A program made the position numbers and the translations under genes. 53,490 bases of DNA from a virus. The stretch lies in the IMG/VR virus record IMGVR_UViG_3300032116_000274, positions 1 to 53,490 of that record; one strand, 5' to 3'. Of the stretch, positions 5,185 to 47,018 are shown in pieces (the stretch's first letter is position 1; each line of letters starts with the position of its first letter). The notes under the pieces were generated by a model. That model was given only the letters and a program-made list of their open reading frames with translations. It did no database searches and was not told the DNA's origin.

Positions 5185-5204
5185 AGCTGTTCCTTCATTT
5201 GTAC

Positions 5205-5212
5205 TATTTAGG
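5205..5212 (-). promoter_or_regulatory. Late promoter upstream of gp14
   Basis: CCTAAATA on the minus strand matches the T4 late consensus TATAAATA at six of eight positions. The expected start near 5199 leaves a 14-base leader containing AAGGAAC before the gp14 ATG at 5184. It should drive the gp14-endolysin-gp15-cca cluster late in infection. Confidence 0.6.
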
Positions 5213-5244
5213 ATCAGACCAGGGTCTTATGCTAGAGACTTTGA

Positions 5245-5262
5245 CTGTTACGCTTCTGTTAA
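5245..5262 (+). promoter_or_regulatory. Pho-box-like direct repeat upstream of pstS
   Basis: Two 7-bp direct repeats, CTGTTAC (5245-5251) and CTGTTAA (5256-5262), are separated by exactly 4 bp (GCTT). This gives the 11-bp repeat period of a PhoB-binding Pho box, whose consensus unit is CTGTCAT. It lies 78 bp before the pstS ATG. The match suggests that host PhoB controls the phage pstS under phosphate limitation. No convincing -10 element is seen at the usual distance. Confidence 0.6.
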
Positions 5263-5339
5263 AAGTGGCTAGTGCTCTTGCACGTTATTTGAAAATCAGG
5301 CAAAATTACAGTGCCAATATGGATATGAAAGGAATAATA

Positions 5340-6371
5340 ATGTATCTAAAAACATTGCTGGCTGCTGCGGTGCTTGTAATAAGCTCTACTGCATCAGTTA
5401 TGGCACAACCTATCAACGGGGCTGGGGCAACATTTCCCAATCCGTTGTATCAGAAATGGGGGGAAGAAGCCAAAAAAACTGGAATTCAACTCAACTATCA
5501 AAGTGTGGGAAGTGGGGCTGGTCAAAACCAAATAAGAAACCGCACAGTGGACTTTGGTGCAAGTGATGCTCCAATGAAACAAGAAGACCTTGAGAAAAAC
5601 AACCTGCTCCAATTTCCTGCTGCGATGGGCAGTTTGGTAGCGGCTGTGCATGTTCCGGGACTGGAAAGGGATCAGCTGAGGCTAACTGGCCAAGTCTTGG
5701 CTGACATATATCTTGGCAAGATTGTAAAATGGAATGACCAACGAATTGTAGAGCTTAACCCCACGCTGCGCCTTCCCAATTTAGCGATAGCTGTTGTGTA
5801 TCGGGCAGATGGCAGTGGCACAACCTATGTGTGGGCCAGCTATCTCTCAGCAGTAAGCGAGGAATGGCGCTCTAGAGTTGGTACCGGTACCAGTGTAAAG
5901 TGGCCCATTGGCACAGGTGCACGAGGGAATGAAGGTGTAAGTGCCAGTGTGCGTCAGCTTCGCGGCGCCATCGGCTATGTGGAGAATGCATATGCCCAAC
6001 AAGCTGGATTGGTGACAACGCAAATTCGGAACAAGGACGGACATTGGGTGCGTCCCAACCACAAAGCTTTTGAGGCAACAGCAGCCGCAGCCAACTGGAA
6101 TGTGCCCAATTTTGCTGTCAACCTCATAGATCAACCTGGAAAGGACACATGGCCCATCGTCAGTCCAACCTTCATCTTGCTCCCACGTGATCCCAAGAAT
6201 CCTGCCACAAGCCTCACAACCATGCGGTTTTTTGACTGGGCTTTCTCACATGGGGACGAGATAGCTGAGCGGCTGGACTATGTACCAGTGCCAGCTGAGG
6301 TGAAAACTCGGATCCGACAAGTATGGGCAAGTGAGGTTAAAGCTCCTGATGGGACTCCTGTTTGGAAGTAA
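5340..6371 (+). CDS. pstS: PstS phosphate-binding periplasmic protein
   Basis: Substrate-binding protein of the high-affinity Pst phosphate transporter, acting in the periplasm. Residues 1-22 form a Sec signal peptide with a likely cut after SVMA. The mature protein begins QPINGAGATFPNPLYQKW, the family signature, followed by VGSGAGQNQIRNRTVDFGAS and the phosphate-contacting RADGSGTT, then GAIGYVENAYA. It has 343 residues, a normal length. I took the ATG at 5340 because AAAGGA lies 6 bases upstream and the signal peptide follows directly; an earlier in-frame start at 5199 has neither. PstS is a known auxiliary metabolic gene of marine T4-like phages, thought to keep phosphate flowing into infected cells. 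A Pho-box-like repeat precedes it and a 13-bp hairpin follows it. Confidence 0.95.
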   Translation: MYLKTLLAAAVLVISSTASVMAQPINGAGATFPNPLYQKWGEEAKKTGIQLNYQSVGSGAGQNQIRNRTVDFGASDAPMKQEDLEKNNLLQFPAAMGSLVAAVHVPGLERDQLRLTGQVLADIYLGKIVKWNDQRIVELNPTLRLPNLAIAVVYRADGSGTTYVWASYLSAVSEEWRSRVGTGTSVKWPIGTGARGNEGVSASVRQLRGAIGYVENAYAQQAGLVTTQIRNKDGHWVRPNHKAFEATAAAANWNVPNFAVNLIDQPGKDTWPIVSPTFILLPRDPKNPATSLTTMRFFDWAFSHGDEIAERLDYVPVPAEVKTRIRQVWASEVKAPDGTPVWK

Positions 6372-10454: not shown

Positions 10455-11690
10455 ATGCTTAGCCGTCTTAAATTTGAAATCCAACCACTTGTGAGCCAAA
10501 TGCTGGATCAGCTTCCAGCCAAGGTATGGGAAAGTTCAGAAACCACTTTTCTTGACCCAGCAATGGGTGGTGGACAGTTTTTGGTTGAAATTCAACGCCG
10601 CCTACAAGCTGCTGGTCATACAGATGAAAACATTGCTGCAAGGGTGTATGGTTGTGAGAAGAACAAACTTTGTGTAAATTATGCAAAGAACAACAAAAAG
10701 TTGGTGAGCAGTAATCTTCACATCAGCAATTTTTTGGATTATGATTGGGGTGATATGAAATTTGATGTGATTGTTGGTAACCCGCCTTACCAAAGTACAG
10801 AATCTGCACAAAAAAAGCTGTGGCCACTTTTTATTGAAAACTCCTTTGATATTGTTGCACCAAATGGATACATTGCTATGGTAACACCTGCCAGTTGGTT
10901 GGGGCGTCCTGATGGCAAAAGCTATGACAACCTGACCAAGAACATTTTTGCGCAAAATCATCTGGCTTGGGTGTTGTCCGACACCAAACAGTATTTTGAC
11001 ATTGGAGAAACTGTGGCAGCATGGTTGCTGCATTGTAATGGAGCACCGTCAAGGCCCACAAGGTTGGTCAGCAACGGGGTTGAAACACAAGTTCAATATC
11101 AAGGGCAGCAAGTGGCTTTGACTCCAGAGCAAGCTCTTGCCTATGCGATCATGAGCAAAGTTGACAACTATCATGCCCCAAGGCTCAGAAGCATTACATA
11201 CAATGATGTTCAAGGCAAAAGTCTCGAGCATTATTTGACAACCAAAGTGTTGTTTGAAAAAAATGGAAAAGGCCGGGTTCCAGTTTTTTGGACCGCAGCC
11301 AACAAAGACAAATATTTCACAGCCCAAGAAAATCAAAAACAAGGTTTGAAGATTATCTTGAATCTCAGCGGCTACTATTACTTGGAATCAGAGCCCCACA
11401 AATATATGTTGATTGATAGCAACAACAAGTATGCTATTGGCGCAGGAAGTCTAGGCCTTCCAATGCCTGACGAAAAAAGTGCAAAGAATTGTTGGAGTTT
11501 TTTGACAAGCAAGCTGTATCAATTTTATATCAACAATGAAAAAACCAGCGGGTTCAATACCGGGATTATCAAACTGCCTTTGTTGGATGTATCTAAGTCC
11601 TGGACTGATGACAAGCTGTGTAAGCTATTTGGTCTCTCCACAACTGAACAAGAGTTTGTCTACAACAATTATCAAAAAAAGACTGCATAG
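10455..11690 (+). CDS. N6-adenine DNA methyltransferase, copy 1
   Basis: Adenine-specific DNA methyltransferase of the TaqI/Eco57I-like type, transferring methyl from S-adenosylmethionine to adenine N6. Motif I is DPAMGGGQF near 34-42 and the catalytic motif IV is NPPYQ near 110-114, preceded by FDVIVG. The remaining 280 residues would hold the target-recognition domain. It has 411 residues; the ATG follows AAGG just after the helicase stop, so it is co-transcribed with the split helicase. The first 130 residues are highly similar to the methyltransferase at 12261, while the C-terminal parts diverge, as expected for paralogues with different target sites. It may protect phage DNA from host restriction or form part of a phage-borne restriction-like system. 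Confidence 0.88.
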   Translation: MLSRLKFEIQPLVSQMLDQLPAKVWESSETTFLDPAMGGGQFLVEIQRRLQAAGHTDENIAARVYGCEKNKLCVNYAKNNKKLVSSNLHISNFLDYDWGDMKFDVIVGNPPYQSTESAQKKLWPLFIENSFDIVAPNGYIAMVTPASWLGRPDGKSYDNLTKNIFAQNHLAWVLSDTKQYFDIGETVAAWLLHCNGAPSRPTRLVSNGVETQVQYQGQQVALTPEQALAYAIMSKVDNYHAPRLRSITYNDVQGKSLEHYLTTKVLFEKNGKGRVPVFWTAANKDKYFTAQENQKQGLKIILNLSGYYYLESEPHKYMLIDSNNKYAIGAGSLGLPMPDEKSAKNCWSFLTSKLYQFYINNEKTSGFNTGIIKLPLLDVSKSWTDDKLCKLFGLSTTEQEFVYNNYQKKTA

Positions 11691-12197: not shown

Positions 12198-12260
12198 GAC
12201 TTTGTTGACGTAATTGTGTCTTGTGTAATTATACCAATAACACTTTTTGTAGAGATAGTG

Positions 12261-13379
12261 ATGCTGGGTCGCTTGAAATTTGAGATCAAACCTCTAGTAA
12301 ATGAGATTTTGGATAATCTGCCTCACGAAATCTGGCAAAGTAGCACTACAACTTTTCTTGATCCTGCTATGGGCGGCGGACAGTTTTTGGTGGAAATCCA
12401 GCAACGACTTCGAGACCAAGGCCACAGTGATGAAAACATCAGCTCTAGGGTGTGGGGTTGTGAGAAGAACAAACTTCGTGTAAATTATGCAAAGAACAAC
12501 AAAAAGTTGGTGTGTAATAATCTATACGTCTCTGACTTTTTGAGTCGTGATTGGGGTAATATGAAATTTGATGTAGTTGTAGGCAATCCGCCCTATCAGA
12601 ACATTCATGGCGCCAAAAGATGGCCAATTTGGCATGAGTTTGTTGTTAACTCGTGTGAGCTCAGCAACCAGTATGTGATGTTGGTTACTCCCAACAGTTG
12701 GATAGGGGCAAGCAACAGTGAGGCCAAAGACCTGATTTGGAAAAACATCACAAAAGCCAGTCTCAGTGTAGACAAATACTTCAATGTTGGATCAACGTTC
12801 AGTTGGTTTTTCTTGGATCTCAACAACACATCAAGTGTTTTTGATGTCACAACCCCTTCTGGTATGTTCTCTGTAAGCAAATCAACCGAATGGTTGCCAG
12901 CCACAATCTCAGAAGCTTCCTTAAGCATCAACCAAAAAGTTTTTTCCAGGGCTGGCTTTGGATTCAAACGAGGAGAATGTCACACCAGCAACAAAGAAAA
13001 GTTCAGTGACAAAGGACATGAAGTTTTTCACACCCATGCACAAACGTTGTATATGAAAAGCAAGCCCTCCAACTTTGGCAGCTACAAGGTTGCATTCTCC
13101 TTGAGCGGAGATATCCGTCCCAGGATTGGAAAGGATTTTGGTGTAAGCCAAGCAGTTGCTTACTTGAAAATTCAAGAAACTCAAGCCAGTAATGCAGAGG
13201 CGGTTTTCAATAGCCAATTGTTTCGTTGGATTCTTCAAAACAACAAATGGAGCGGGTGGAACAGTTTGGATGTAATCAAAAGGCTGCCTTTTGTGGACTT
13301 GAGCAGCAGTTGGGATGACCAAAAACTATTTGACTACTTCCAACTTTCATCAGATGAAATTTCACACATAACAGCATAA
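12261..13379 (+). CDS. N6-adenine DNA methyltransferase, copy 2
   Basis: Second complete adenine methyltransferase, 372 residues. Motif I DPAMGGGQF (34-42) and motif IV NPPYQ (110-114) are identical in sequence and position to the copy at 10455. The surrounding DNA is also close: a run of about 65 bases at 10641 and 12450 differs at only a few positions, which points to recent duplication or gene conversion. From about residue 120 on, the two proteins diverge, consistent with different recognition domains. I start at the ATG at 12261, aligned with the start of copy 1; the longer in-frame reading upstream is hydrophobic nonsense. It is the last gene of the early operon; the late gp13 promoter follows within 31 bp. 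Confidence 0.87.
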   Translation: MLGRLKFEIKPLVNEILDNLPHEIWQSSTTTFLDPAMGGGQFLVEIQQRLRDQGHSDENISSRVWGCEKNKLRVNYAKNNKKLVCNNLYVSDFLSRDWGNMKFDVVVGNPPYQNIHGAKRWPIWHEFVVNSCELSNQYVMLVTPNSWIGASNSEAKDLIWKNITKASLSVDKYFNVGSTFSWFFLDLNNTSSVFDVTTPSGMFSVSKSTEWLPATISEASLSINQKVFSRAGFGFKRGECHTSNKEKFSDKGHEVFHTHAQTLYMKSKPSNFGSYKVAFSLSGDIRPRIGKDFGVSQAVAYLKIQETQASNAEAVFNSQLFRWILQNNKWSGWNSLDVIKRLPFVDLSSSWDDQKLFDYFQLSSDEISHITA

Positions 13380-40784: not shown

Positions 40785-41510
40785 ATGGCTTTCTTCACCA
40801 GCTTCTTCAAATCCAAGATGGAGTCACTACACGACGGAGCTATCAGGCTAATGGCCTCCTGGGATCCGGCCGCAGTATCTGCCGCTCAACTCAAGGAATG
40901 GGATACCCAAGCCCAAGAGATGGCTGAGGCTGCTGCTCGAGCCGAAACCGACAGCCGAGCTGCCTCAGAGCGACTCGCAAATATCAAAAGCAACCTAGCT
41001 CGCTACACCGCTGCTGCTGAGAAGCTGATGGCTGCTGGCAACGAAACTGCTGCAAACAAGGCTGCTGATGAGGCACTGAAGTTCCAGGATCAGCTGAAGG
41101 ATGCTGAGGAAGAGGCCTCAGATGCCGCTGAGTGGGCTGCAGAAACTCGACAGGCTGCTGAAAACGCCCAGCGACTGGTTGTGGAAGGCCGGCAGAAGCT
41201 GGAACGTGCTCGCCGAGACCAAGAGCGTGCTGAGCAGGAGGCCCAGGTGGCAGAAGCACGTCGTGCCGAGCGTGAGCGTATGGCTGGCATCACCAAGGGG
41301 CTGAGTGGCACAGATGCTGCACTTGATGCTATGGCTGCCAATGCTCGAGAGGCTCGCGAACGTGCCGCTGCAAACCGAATTCGTAGCGATGCTCTGGGTA
41401 AGGCATCAGACAGTGACTCGGCAGTGGCCGCAGCTCTAGCAGAGGTTGATGGCAAGGGAAAGGCCAGTAGCCTGCAGGAAAAGCTGGCTGCACTTCGCGC
41501 TCGGGGCTAA
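40785..41510 (+). CDS. Ala/Glu-rich coiled-coil protein
   Basis: A 241-residue protein that is almost entirely alpha-helical coiled coil from about residue 40 to 190 (runs of A, E, R, such as EAEEEASDAAEWAAETRQ-like heptads). The N-terminal 30 residues (MAFFTSFFKSKMESLHDGAIRLMAS) form an amphipathic helix, and the C-terminal SLQEKLAALRARG another. The plan, an amphipathic N-terminus plus a long hairpin coiled coil, resembles PspA/Vipp1 membrane-guarding proteins, but the sequence match is too general to claim homology. Start ATG behind GAAAGGAC, with its own early promoter. It converges with the kinase-like cluster. Confidence 0.65.
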   Translation: MAFFTSFFKSKMESLHDGAIRLMASWDPAAVSAAQLKEWDTQAQEMAEAAARAETDSRAASERLANIKSNLARYTAAAEKLMAAGNETAANKAADEALKFQDQLKDAEEEASDAAEWAAETRQAAENAQRLVVEGRQKLERARRDQERAEQEAQVAEARRAERERMAGITKGLSGTDAALDAMAANAREARERAAANRIRSDALGKASDSDSAVAAALAEVDGKGKASSLQEKLAALRARG

Positions 41511-42136
41511 AACCAAGGATCGGTAATCACAAGGGTTTGGCCTCGTAGCATGAAGTTTTCATGGTGCAAGTCAAACCTTTTGATTCCGTGCTTTTTTGCT
41601 GCAAGAACGATCTTATCAGAGATGTCTAGCCAACTGGCATCTGGATAGCCAAATTTCTTCCACAAGTCTTGTAGATCATCTCTCACGTTAGTATCTGGCT
41701 CAATCCGTATGCCATATTGGTAGATCCAATCCTTTACCATATATTCATTACTATCAGTAATTGTGTCAATGCCATGTGTTTGGCCAACTGCCCACAGCCA
41801 GATCAATTCTGGTTTGTATAGCTTGGCCAAAGGCTCTTTGAGAATTGGCTTCAGCTTTTCCATTCTTGTATAGAGATAATCAGTGCCGGGTATTGGTGCT
41901 GTGTAACGGCTGAACACAGGAACATGTGGATTACTTTGGTTCTGTCTCACAAATTCCACAAACCATTCATAGCGACTGGGCTTGCGCCATATTTTCAATA
42001 CGTATTCACGTTTTGGATGTTCTGCTACAATACCCTCTTTGCCCTCGCCCAAAAGATACCAGCCATTTTTCTTGATTATTTGCAAGAGTGTTTGCGTTTT
42101 GATGTCTTTGGTTATTTGGATTTCATGTAGGTGCAT
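41507..42136 (-). CDS. Kinase-fold protein, paralogue 3
   Basis: Protein-kinase-like fold, 209 residues, third of three tandem paralogues on the minus strand. The N-lobe has a Gly-rich loop (LLGEGKEGIV near 29) and YVLKIW, whose Lys matches the VAIK Lys. The C-lobe ends with the catalytic loop RFDLHHENFML, giving Asp and Asn of the HxDxxxxN pattern, and the metal site VITDPWF in place of DFG. It starts MHLHEIQITKDIK, a leader also seen in its siblings. The ATG at 42136 overlaps the previous gene by 14 bp, so the three are co-translated. Its substrate is unknown: host protein, phage protein or small molecule. Confidence 0.7.
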   Translation of the reverse strand: MHLHEIQITKDIKTQTLLQIIKKNGWYLLGEGKEGIVAEHPKREYVLKIWRKPSRYEWFVEFVRQNQSNPHVPVFSRYTAPIPGTDYLYTRMEKLKPILKEPLAKLYKPELIWLWAVGQTHGIDTITDSNEYMVKDWIYQYGIRIEPDTNVRDDLQDLWKKFGYPDASWLDISDKIVLAAKKHGIKRFDLHHENFMLRGQTLVITDPWF

Positions 42137-42800
42137 AACTTAGTTTTCCAACAAATGGGTCAGTTAATACCAGGGTATTTTGCCTAAGCATGAAATTGTC
42201 AGCATGCAGGTCAAATCGTGTTTTTTGTCCCAGCGTGGGCAAGAATCGCACTAACAAATTTACAGTTGCCATCCAATCTTGCGGTGGCTGACCAATAGTT
42301 TTCCACATCTCACGTCTTGCAAAGAAGCCAGTAAGAAGCTTAGCTGCTTTGTTGGGATGAACCTTGTAGGCTCGTTCCAAACGTTGTCTCACACTGGAGT
42401 GGAAATTCCAATGCATCTCCAACCCGCGTTTTTGAAGCTCCAAATACAGGTATGTTATTTCTGGCATGAATGCAAAAAAGAGTTCATTCTCGCTTATGGC
42501 TTGGAGTGGTTCCATCCGCACGTAGTTCATTGGGGGTTGGCTACCTTGTAATTTCTGCGTTTTACGGCTAAATTTTGGGAGGTGAGGATCATTTAAATGA
42601 TCCCTACAAAGCTTTACAAATGCATTATATGAGGAACCTGATGGGAATATCTTCAACACATAAGGAACATCAGGCTTTGATACTACTGTTGCCTCTGCAC
42701 CTACACCTAAAACTTTCCAACCATATTTGGCAGCAATTTCCTGCCAATTGGCATTGCTTTGTTTGACATCTTGTGAGATGGAGATTTCATGTAATTTCAT
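42123..42800 (-). CDS. Kinase-fold protein, paralogue 2
   Basis: Second kinase-fold paralogue, 225 residues. Gly-loop-like VLGVGAEATVV near 28, VAIK-like YVLKIF near 46, catalytic loop RFDLHADNFML near 200 and metal-binding VLTDPF complete the minimal kinase set, which argues for activity. The leader MKLHEISISQDVK parallels its siblings. The middle (DPHLPKFSRK, MNYVRMEPL) is shared with both others and acts as the hinge region. It follows paralogue 1 by 3 bp. Compared with typical kinases the C-lobe is short, about like small aminoglycoside-phosphotransferase relatives. Confidence 0.7.
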   Translation of the reverse strand: MKLHEISISQDVKQSNANWQEIAAKYGWKVLGVGAEATVVSKPDVPYVLKIFPSGSSYNAFVKLCRDHLNDPHLPKFSRKTQKLQGSQPPMNYVRMEPLQAISENELFFAFMPEITYLYLELQKRGLEMHWNFHSSVRQRLERAYKVHPNKAAKLLTGFFARREMWKTIGQPPQDWMATVNLLVRFLPTLGQKTRFDLHADNFMLRQNTLVLTDPFVGKLSYAPT

Positions 42801-42803
42801 TGG

Positions 42804-43442
42804 TTATCTTGACACTAGTGGGTCTGCAATTACTAGAGTTTGCGCCCTTTGCATAAAGTTGTCAGAATGTAAATCCAACTTGCTGGGCCAATGTGTGCCT
42901 TGGTTGTACAACTCCAGCAATAGGTCAACCGCCTGTTTCCAGGTGGTGCTGGGTTGACCAATTTTGTCCCATAATTCATTTTGAATTGTGTGGTCAAATA
43001 TGCTGCCCCTAGACAACTGCCGCAAATACACCCCTACGGTGGGCGCAAACATCTCATGAAATTCCAAACCCAGTTTAGTGCTTTCAATATACAAGTAGGC
43101 CAACTCTGGAAGATGGTGTTGCATTAACTGAATTTGAGTCACTGGAGCCAATATTTCCATTCGCACATAACTCATTTCAGTGCCCGGAATAGGCCTTACA
43201 TAACGGCTGAATTTGGGAAAATGTGGGTTTTGTTGATTTTGTTGCACAAGTTTTACAAAATCCACATACGATGTATCAGTGCTGAATATTCTTAGCACAT
43301 ACGGCTTTTGTGGATGTTTCACAACCACAGCCTCTGTTCCTCTGCCCACCAAAGTCCAACCGTGCGATTTTACAACTTGTTGCCAATACACCGGCCCACG
43401 TTTTTTCAATTGTTTGGTGATTTCTAATTCAGCTAAATTCAT
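42804..43442 (-). CDS. Kinase-fold protein, paralogue 1 (possible pseudokinase)
   Basis: First kinase-fold paralogue, 212 residues, leader MNLAELEITKQLK. It keeps the Gly-loop-like LVGRGTEAVVV and the catalytic loop KLDLHSDNFM, with the metal site VIADPL, but the VAIK-type Lys is Arg (YVLRIF). That change usually weakens or abolishes ATP use, so it may be a regulatory partner of its siblings. NPHFPKFSRYVRPIPGTEMSY in the hinge region matches the others. A late promoter lies so close upstream that the mRNA would begin at the ATG; no ribosome binding site is seen. Confidence 0.68.
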   Translation of the reverse strand: MNLAELEITKQLKKRGPVYWQQVVKSHGWTLVGRGTEAVVVKHPQKPYVLRIFSTDTSYVDFVKLVQQNQQNPHFPKFSRYVRPIPGTEMSYVRMEILAPVTQIQLMQHHLPELAYLYIESTKLGLEFHEMFAPTVGVYLRQLSRGSIFDHTIQNELWDKIGQPSTTWKQAVDLLLELYNQGTHWPSKLDLHSDNFMQRAQTLVIADPLVSR

Positions 43443-43447
43443 AGGAG

Positions 43448-43455
43448 TATTTATC
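43448..43455 (-). promoter_or_regulatory. Late promoter of the kinase-like cluster
   Basis: GATAAATA on the minus strand, seven of eight bases matching the T4 consensus. With T4 geometry transcription starts at or beside the ATG at 43442, implying a leaderless mRNA. Confidence 0.5.
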
Positions 43456-45523: not shown

Positions 45524-45551
45524 TTGACACGCTCCTTGGGTGCTATACAAT
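45524..45551 (+). promoter_or_regulatory. Early sigma70-type promoter
   Basis: TTGACA (45524-45529), a 16-bp spacer and TACAAT (45546-45551), followed by GAGAGG and the GTG at 45576. It drives the radical SAM gene. Confidence 0.75.
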
Positions 45552-45575
45552 AGGCACACAAACAGAGAGGTAGTC

Positions 45576-47018
45576 GTGAAGGTTTTCAACGTTCGAGCTG
45601 GCTTTGCCACCAACAGCAGCAGTAGCCACAGCATTGTGATGATTCCTGCAGGGATGCGGGTTAGCACAGATGAGTATAACCGCTTTGAGTATGGCTGGGA
45701 ACAGTTCACGCTTGCTGACCAAGACAGCAAATCTGCTTACTTTGCTACTCAGCTCTACCATGCCCTGGATCGAGAAGGGGTAACTGGCGATACAGCAGTT
45801 CAGCTTATGAACACTTGGCTGGGGACAAACTACAGTTCAGATAGTTTTCACAGCTATGGTGTTGACCATCAAAGCATTTGGGGAATCTTCTCTGGACCTG
45901 ATCCTGTAAATGGCGAATTTGCCTGCAGCCTCTATCAGTATGTGATGCGAGACGATGTGGTGATCCTGGGCGGGAATGACAACAGCGAAGGGCAAACTCC
46001 TCCAACAGGCAGCTTCATCAACGAAGTAACTGATGCTATCCAGAACTCGGGTGAAAAACGGATTCGACAAGACGGTGTCTATTGGGCCCTGTTCAGTCCC
46101 AGCACTGGTCACAAGGTTCGGCTCAGCATGCATGATGATGCGCCAGCTTATGTGAAGAGCACTTACCCTGAGCTGGTCGACATTAAGCTGACCGACTATT
46201 GCGCCTACCGCTGTGAATGGTGTTACCAAGGCAGCACCAAACAGGGCAAGCACGGTGACATCCGGGACATCAAAAGCCTCGTGGATGTTTTCAGCAAGAT
46301 GGGCGTGTTTGAGATTGCATATGGTGGTGGCGAGACCACTGAGCATCCAGATTTTGCTGAGATCCTACGCTACACTGCCAGCAAAAACATTATACCCAAC
46401 TTCACCACCTTTGGTGTGAAGTGGAGTTTGGATGAAACAACAGCATTGGCGGTGGTGGAACATGCAGGTGCTATTGGCGTTTCTGTTCACCAAGCCAAAG
46501 ATCTCAACAAAATCCACAAGATCAGAGAAAATCTGGACCAAGCAATGAAAAACAGCGGCGCCGAGTATTGGGGCTTGCCGAGCATCATGGCACAGCATGT
46601 AGTGGGCAGTGTGGACCTGTCTGAAACTGCTGATCTCCTGGAACGTTGCTGGGAGGAAGGGGTGAATGTGCTCTTGCTGGGCTACAAAAACGTGGGCTTT
46701 GGGGCCAATGTCACTCCACATGATCTCACAGGACTGGACGTGGTCTTGAAGCTGCGACAGCAAAAGGATCGAGCACACTACAACACTCGCTTCAGCATGC
46801 TGGGTGTTGACACAGCCTTTGTTCAGCAGTTTGATCCGATCCTTGAGGAACTGGACATTCCCCGGGTGCTGAAAACGTCCGAAGAGGGCAAGTTCAGTAT
46901 GTATATCGACACAGTGCGTATGCAGCAAGGGCCCAGCAGCTATATGCCTGACCAAATGGTAGCAGTTGACAAAAGCAACCTGTTCAACAGCATCGCAGAA
47001 AATTACAAAGTTTGGTAG
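45576..47018 (+). CDS. Radical SAM protein with FATNSSSSHS N-terminus
   Basis: Radical SAM enzyme of unknown substrate, 480 residues. The iron-sulfur site is CAYRCEWC (C209, C213, C216) with an aromatic residue before the last Cys, and GGGETTEHP near 250 is the SAM-binding glycine motif. The first 200 residues form another domain beginning KVFNVRAGFATNSSSSHSIV, a Ser-rich start motif I associate with other phage proteins. The C-terminus has no extra Cys cluster of SPASM type. GTG start at 45576 behind GAGAGG, with its own early promoter and a strong terminator after it, so it is a stand-alone unit. A peptide- or RNA-modifying role is possible. Confidence 0.8.
   Translation: MKVFNVRAGFATNSSSSHSIVMIPAGMRVSTDEYNRFEYGWEQFTLADQDSKSAYFATQLYHALDREGVTGDTAVQLMNTWLGTNYSSDSFHSYGVDHQSIWGIFSGPDPVNGEFACSLYQYVMRDDVVILGGNDNSEGQTPPTGSFINEVTDAIQNSGEKRIRQDGVYWALFSPSTGHKVRLSMHDDAPAYVKSTYPELVDIKLTDYCAYRCEWCYQGSTKQGKHGDIRDIKSLVDVFSKMGVFEIAYGGGETTEHPDFAEILRYTASKNIIPNFTTFGVKWSLDETTALAVVEHAGAIGVSVHQAKDLNKIHKIRENLDQAMKNSGAEYWGLPSIMAQHVVGSVDLSETADLLERCWEEGVNVLLLGYKNVGFGANVTPHDLTGLDVVLKLRQQKDRAHYNTRFSMLGVDTAFVQQFDPILEELDIPRVLKTSEEGKFSMYIDTVRMQQGPSSYMPDQMVAVDKSNLFNSIAENYKVW

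Follow-up and report, generated by a model that had tools for sequence, protein, structure and literature searches.

Three tandem mini-kinases with predicted capsid-targeting leaders in a T4-like jumbo virus

The described proteins closest to the genes analyzed here are the T7-type protein kinases and the internal head proteins of T4. The genes, termed mini-kinases A, B and C, stand in tandem in a 53,490-base IMG/VR record (IMGVR_UViG_3300032116_000274), which was analyzed as a whole and is referred to as the window. With T7 gp0.7 and JSS1_004 (PHROG 15752) they share a homologous kinase core containing the motif DLHxxNxM...DP. JSS1_004 phosphorylates DndFGH, CasD, HerA and QatABCD, blunting those defences, and T7-type kinases were described as 'found almost exclusively in Autographiviridae' (PMC12345140). 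Genes of the T7 type are early and single, encode a C-terminal shutoff domain, lack a leader and occur in phages without an S77 protease, whereas the trio is predicted to be late, is tandem and leader-bearing, and belongs to T4-like jumbo phages. With the T4 internal proteins Ip1-3 and with Alt the trio shares an N-terminal propeptide ending in (L/I)xE. In T4, gp21 cleaves after (L/I)xE. N-terminal propeptides of this sort begin both Alt and the internal proteins, and in the latter they are known to direct the protein into the head (PMC9026906). The T4 internal proteins are injected, with a common leader on unrelated proteins and several inhibitors per phage (PMC9026906, PMC12373910). Here, in contrast, the cargo is a predicted kinase and occurs in paralogous arrays and polyproteins; the leader of 5-6 residues resembles that of Alt, whereas those of the Ips have 10-19.

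The kinases of polyvalent proteins (PMC5512222) are similar in that the active site is kept, the C-lobe is missing, other effector domains are fused to them and they are thought to be packaged. However, they possess a His-Asp insert and other signature residues, whereas the mini-kinases are without the insert. In addition, polyvalent proteins stem from phages and prophages of Verrucomicrobia/Chlamydia and Bacteroidetes, and some contain their own peptidases, whereas the junction sites described below fit the head protease. The resemblance to aminoglycoside phosphotransferases (APH) is one of fold only.

The trio is real and conserved, and is a new combination of a T7-type kinase core with predicted capsid-targeted cargo of the T4 type. 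As the best explanation we consider it likely that the three kinases are made late, packaged by means of their leaders, cleaved by S77 and injected; we infer packaging, cleavage, injection, kinase activity and targets. One late promoter would drive the synthesis of the three T7-gp0.7-type kinases late in infection, and their first five residues would serve as a T4-style capsid-targeting propeptide that brings each kinase into the prohead core. The S77 (gp21-type) prohead protease would cut (L/I)xE behind its Glu, so that mature kinases remain within the head. Together with the DNA these would pass into the next host and immediately phosphorylate host proteins, ahead of all phage gene expression. 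In related phages this cargo would have grown through tandem duplication, to as many as 7 consecutive genes, or through fusion into polyproteins with cut sites between the units. Packaging for the next host was one of several roles offered when the DNA was first read from its letters alone (the original prediction), and by virtue of the gp21-type leader it is now the leading explanation. That prediction also knew of no phage system built this way. The kinase type is known from T7 gp0.7, packaging by a tag is known from the T4 internal proteins and Alt, and the cultured phage Milchi has an untagged trio, but the combination is new; a literature search, mostly without subscription journals and bioRxiv, found no report of capsid-targeted kinases.

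A tandem array of small T7-type kinases

The three genes are tightly packed (Table 1): A and B stand 3 nt apart, and B and C overlap by 14 nt. Their products are 39-40% identical in pairwise comparison, and chance likeness is excluded because the E value between copies is ~1e-40. All three contain a Gly-rich loop, YVL(R/K)I, DLHxxNFMxR and (A/T)DP, and the tandem open reading frames (ORFs) with shared motifs that had been proposed were all found at their coordinates. The proportions of nonsynonymous and synonymous change (pN/pS) were 0.19/0.75 for A and 0.34/0.84 for C; these are quoted in place of dN/dS, which is unusable because dS is saturated.

Table 1. Features of the mini-kinase locus (arrows mark the predicted cleavage position)
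Feature	Position	Strand	Description and basis
Mini-kinase A	42804..43442	-	212 amino acids; first gene of array; Arg replaces beta3 Lys; PHROG match, AlphaFold model
Mini-kinase B	42123..42800	-	225 amino acids; PHROG match, tblastn to T7-group kinases
Mini-kinase C	41507..42136	-	209 amino acids; PHROG match, AlphaFold model
Leader of A, MNLAE↓L	43428..43442	-	Predicted capsid-targeting propeptide and prohead-protease site; leader enrichment, (L/I)xE motif (PMC9026906), likeness to T4 Alt
Leader of B, MKLHE↓I	42786..42800	-	Predicted capsid-targeting propeptide and prohead-protease site; leader enrichment
Leader of C, MHLHE↓I	42122..42136	-	Predicted capsid-targeting propeptide and prohead-protease site; leader enrichment, low-confidence model N-terminus
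T4-type late promoter element GATAAATA	43448-43455	-	5 nt separate the end of TAAATA from the ATG of A

Each protein of the trio matches PHROG 15752 (T7 protein kinase) with E ~3e-8, and B was aligned by tblastn to T7-group kinases with 24-26% identity over 86-95% of length. A Pfam search of the trio gave no kinase or APH domain match, and a sequence search of the PDB returned noise only. AlphaFold models were obtained for A from three input sequences (predicted local distance difference test, pLDDT, 81) and for C from 47 (pLDDT 91; block 1-10, pLDDT 52). Both models weakly matched APH and Ser/Thr protein kinases in the PDB (E ~1e-4, template-modelling score ~0.4), in agreement with the kinase fold originally proposed, and the model of A matched phage protein kinases in BFVD more strongly (E ~1e-8).

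In an alignment of 47 family members, trio included, D189, N194, M196, R198 and D206 are invariant (47/47). The position of the beta3 Lys is occupied by Lys in 42 members, Arg in 3 and Ile in 2, and the Arg of copy A is also found in its ortholog in the collinear contig G002 (see below). Neither a His before the catalytic Asp nor an insert between them is present in the alignment, which has KLDLH and RFDLH instead. Past xDP the aligned members have a median of 4 further residues and no C-terminal transcription-shutoff domain; the trio consists of the kinase core without the C-lobe, the chain stopping after the DP strand. In JSS1_004, an active T7-type kinase, the changes N201T and M203T relieve toxicity (PMC12345140), and by our own reading of the motif N201 and M203 are the equivalents of the Asn and Met of the family. 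Judged from these sequence features, the proteins are small, stripped-down protein kinases of the T7 gp0.7 group with predicted activity. The idea of an enzyme-pseudokinase team within the trio was abandoned: the catalytic Asp, the Asn and the metal Asp are intact in every copy, and only A departs, by its Arg at beta3.

The leader, the late promoter and the head protease

The mini-kinase family, collected by viral contig scans and an iterated profile, comprises 140 ORFs in 84 loci, most of which start with M-x-(L/I)-x-E-(L/I/F) or a near variant. When only the first ATG was taken, with no choice of start and with the Glu no later than residue 5, the (L/I)xE leader was present in 51 of 86 dereplicated family members versus 30 of 699 other genes of the same loci (p ~1e-35). 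The N-terminus of T4 Alt reads MELITE↓L. A kinase of the cultured Rhizobium phage RHph_I1_18 starts with (L)KSFSEHIAE↓S, which is similar to the leader of a T4 internal protein. Proteins other than kinases bear the leader as well. A stand-alone homolog of the anti-CBASS (cyclic oligonucleotide-based antiphage signalling system) protein Acb1 starts with MKLYE↓L (L070:13239-13697, minus strand; PF23474, E 1.9e-23), which suggests that anti-CBASS Acb1 can be virion-borne, and the leader was also seen on several ADP-ribosyltransferase-like proteins, judged by eye from LYRG-type motifs and without Pfam support. Three T7-group kinases are without a leader; two of their phages were tested for S77 and both lack it. 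That the leader belongs to the kinase fold was rejected, as it is also present on Acb1 and at the internal junctions of polyproteins. The original prediction had listed an LxEIxITK-type leader as a shared motif, which it is; beyond this, the most fitting reading of M-x-(L/I)-x-E↓(I/L) is a site for capsid targeting and prohead-protease cleavage of the T4 gp21 type.

Further leader-bearing genes were noted in related contigs. Several adjacent ones lie near five mini-kinase ORFs at L075:16231-19655 (minus strand); three of them match PHROG 11975 (unknown function) and one has an LYRG motif as in ADP-ribosyltransferases. A late-promoter gene of G002, the closest large relative of the window, starts with MRITDLNPRILRE↓S and contains an RLYRA motif (L134:1783-2607, minus strand), and may encode an Alt-like ADP-ribosyltransferase. 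At L035:6728-7288, L016:7287-8256 and L089:5334-5852, the leader or a close variant is followed, past the predicted cleavage region, by a stretch resembling a twin-arginine translocation signal (RRGFL) or a signal peptide.

The late expression postulated for the trio is supported, at the level of promoter sequence, by the TAAATA element ahead of A. The arrangement TAAATA-N(4-7)-ATG also precedes other genes of the window and of G002, several of them structural-looking. TAAATA at 25 nt or less upstream was found in 26 of 66 leader-bearing family members versus 106 of 948 control genes. Among non-kinase genes the late promoter was present in 8 of 36 with the leader versus 71 of 1367 without (p 6e-4), and genes with the leader pattern minus the Glu showed no association (4/66, p 0.78). 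The association outside the kinases indicates that the leader marks late genes whatever the fold. As many genes of this phage group have TAAATA just 4-7 nt ahead of their start, leaderless or near-leaderless late mRNAs are predicted, including that of A.

An S77 protease was detected in 15 of 32 records of relatives; of the 11 records longer than 250 kb, 8 have it. The major capsid proteins of these phages, three of which were confirmed as gp23 by Pfam, carry LCE↓G or LLE↓G as a conserved site at about residue 20. In two relatives (G017 and G027) a kinase gene lies ~2.5 kb from gp23.

Arrays, polyproteins and genomic context

Tandem sets of 2-7 mini-kinases recur across many phages: L058 has seven in succession, L061 as many as seven members, L075 five, L064 and L092 four each, and L040 and L044 three each. 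The cultured Pseudomonas phage Milchi likewise has three neighbouring mini-kinase genes (PQ464597.1, 152850-155244), of which two carry the annotation 'protein kinase'. In two loci the units are fused. The ORF of L036 encodes 1250 amino acids with six kinase units, and that of L080 1951 amino acids with four kinases, an Acb1 domain (E 2.8e-22) and other modules; the polyprotein predicted at L080:2045-7852 has 1936 amino acids and includes repeated acetyltransferase-like/DUF6934 modules. In L036, the linkers contain 4.4 (L/I)xE per 100 residues versus 0.9 in the kinase domains, and 21 of the 23 sites of L080 lie outside the kinase domains. Twin sites a few residues apart are frequent, as in LTE↓STQQLNE↓LFDF (L080) and LYE↓SMLGE↓LIGYK (L036). 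Such pairs are expected where a C-terminal site that closes one unit abuts the N-terminal leader that opens the following one; Alt is cut at its C-terminus too, according to a review (PMC9026906).

The window contains T4-like genes for terminase, UvsX, UvsW, a single-stranded DNA-binding protein and a tail sheath of 1231 amino acids, and its source is a jumbo T4-like virus of bacteria. Two plus-strand genes flank the trio, a coiled-coil-like ORF and the gene of the UvsW helicase. Positions 244,716-296,908 of contig G002 (328,603 bases) are collinear with the window, with 75-95% identity for most genes (terminase 94.5%, UvsW 89.5%). The kinases rank with the genes that diverge faster: the orthologs of A and C are 71% and 51% identical, respectively, and B has no ortholog in G002. 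S77 is present in the close relatives G001 and G002. In G002 it lies at 237,839, ~7 kb past the point matching the left end of the window, in a portal-protease-scaffold-major capsid cluster that follows the T4 order (portal-21-22-23); the head region falls outside the window. A scan of bacterial and archaeal genomes found no close relatives, and therefore no host was assigned.

Between kinase A and uvsW, G002 (285918-287043) has a homing-endonuclease-like frame and an apparently duplicated uvsW 5' end, both of which the window lacks. The window further encodes a PstS-like phosphate-transporter subunit (5199-6371), two DNA methyltransferases (10455-11690 and 12216-13379) and a radical S-adenosylmethionine protein (45540-47018).

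Competing explanations and implications

Several observations weigh against packaging and cleavage of the kinases by way of the leader. About one quarter of the family members have no leader even by a looser pattern (66 of 87 with leader), the LxE motif is short, and shared ancestry makes the enrichment counts non-independent. The alignment (A3) was built from leader-bearing members, which biases its 45/47 Glu at position 5. Copy A is without the beta3 Lys. The window contains no head genes, and the S77 of its phage is inferred from G002. Finally, Milchi is S77-positive, yet its three mini-kinases have no leader, and the kinases of its relative Astolliot are leaderless too. The link between leader and S77, when tested, thus proved not to be absolute on account of Milchi, which indicates that the tag is separable from the kinase.

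The kinases could instead act late in the same cell, in assembly, lysis or superinfection, and stay unpackaged, the leader being a conserved segment of the fold or a feature of translation start. A late promoter would suit such a role, and residues 3-8 or 3-14 are drawn as a helix in the models; however, the leader is of low confidence in both models, is missing from the homologous T7-group kinases, and is found in identical type on the unrelated Acb1 and ADP-ribosyltransferase-like proteins. It also precedes internal units of polyproteins, at which translation does not start and a start feature would have no bearing. We regard this possibility as unlikely. Still less probable are degenerate kinase-fold binders, for example decoys for defence proteins. 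The missing C-lobe helices past DP, the minority of members with Arg or Ile at the beta3 Lys and the lack of a visible conserved alphaC Glu in the alignment would be in line with pseudokinases, but are opposed by the invariant catalytic Asp, Asn and metal Asp, by the same motif in the active JSS1_004, in which, by our residue matching, changes of the Asn and Met relieve toxicity, and by nonsynonymous change well below synonymous in A and C. Small-molecule kinases of the APH type, for resistance or metabolites, are very improbable: although APH are the best fold matches in the PDB, phage protein kinases are the best matches by sequence and viral fold, and a resistance role is ill-suited to head cargo or arrays of divergent copies.

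Returning to late-made kinases that are packaged and injected, we see about an even chance that their purpose is anti-defence; the countering of defences, also offered in the original prediction, is plausible by homology. Diverging injected kinases would fit such a role because T7-type kinases weaken defences and Ip1-3 of T4, which are injected, each block a different restriction enzyme (PMC12373910). On balance, and with less assurance than for the trio itself, we favour the view that the capsids of T4-like jumbo phages are loaded with an arsenal of enzymes, comprising mini-kinases, ADP-ribosyltransferase-like proteins, the CBASS-signal nuclease Acb1 and acetyltransferase-like modules, which is marked by a prohead-protease leader of 5-6 residues. 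Some of these would be polyproteins cut apart in the prohead by the head protease, and the trio of the window would be one cargo set.

Kinases of the T7 type, which are expressed early, are known to suppress several bacterial defences; head-loaded kinases, if true, would precede the first phage transcript, and their action would coincide with the time when restriction and abortive systems first strike. The five-residue leader would be a simple computational handle to list injected effectors of jumbo phages, most of whose genes are of unknown function, and opens the question of which proteins a phage injects to a direct test by virion proteomics. Cargo that is made as a polyprotein and cut by a capsid protease, if true, would be a delivery format apparently undescribed for phage effectors.
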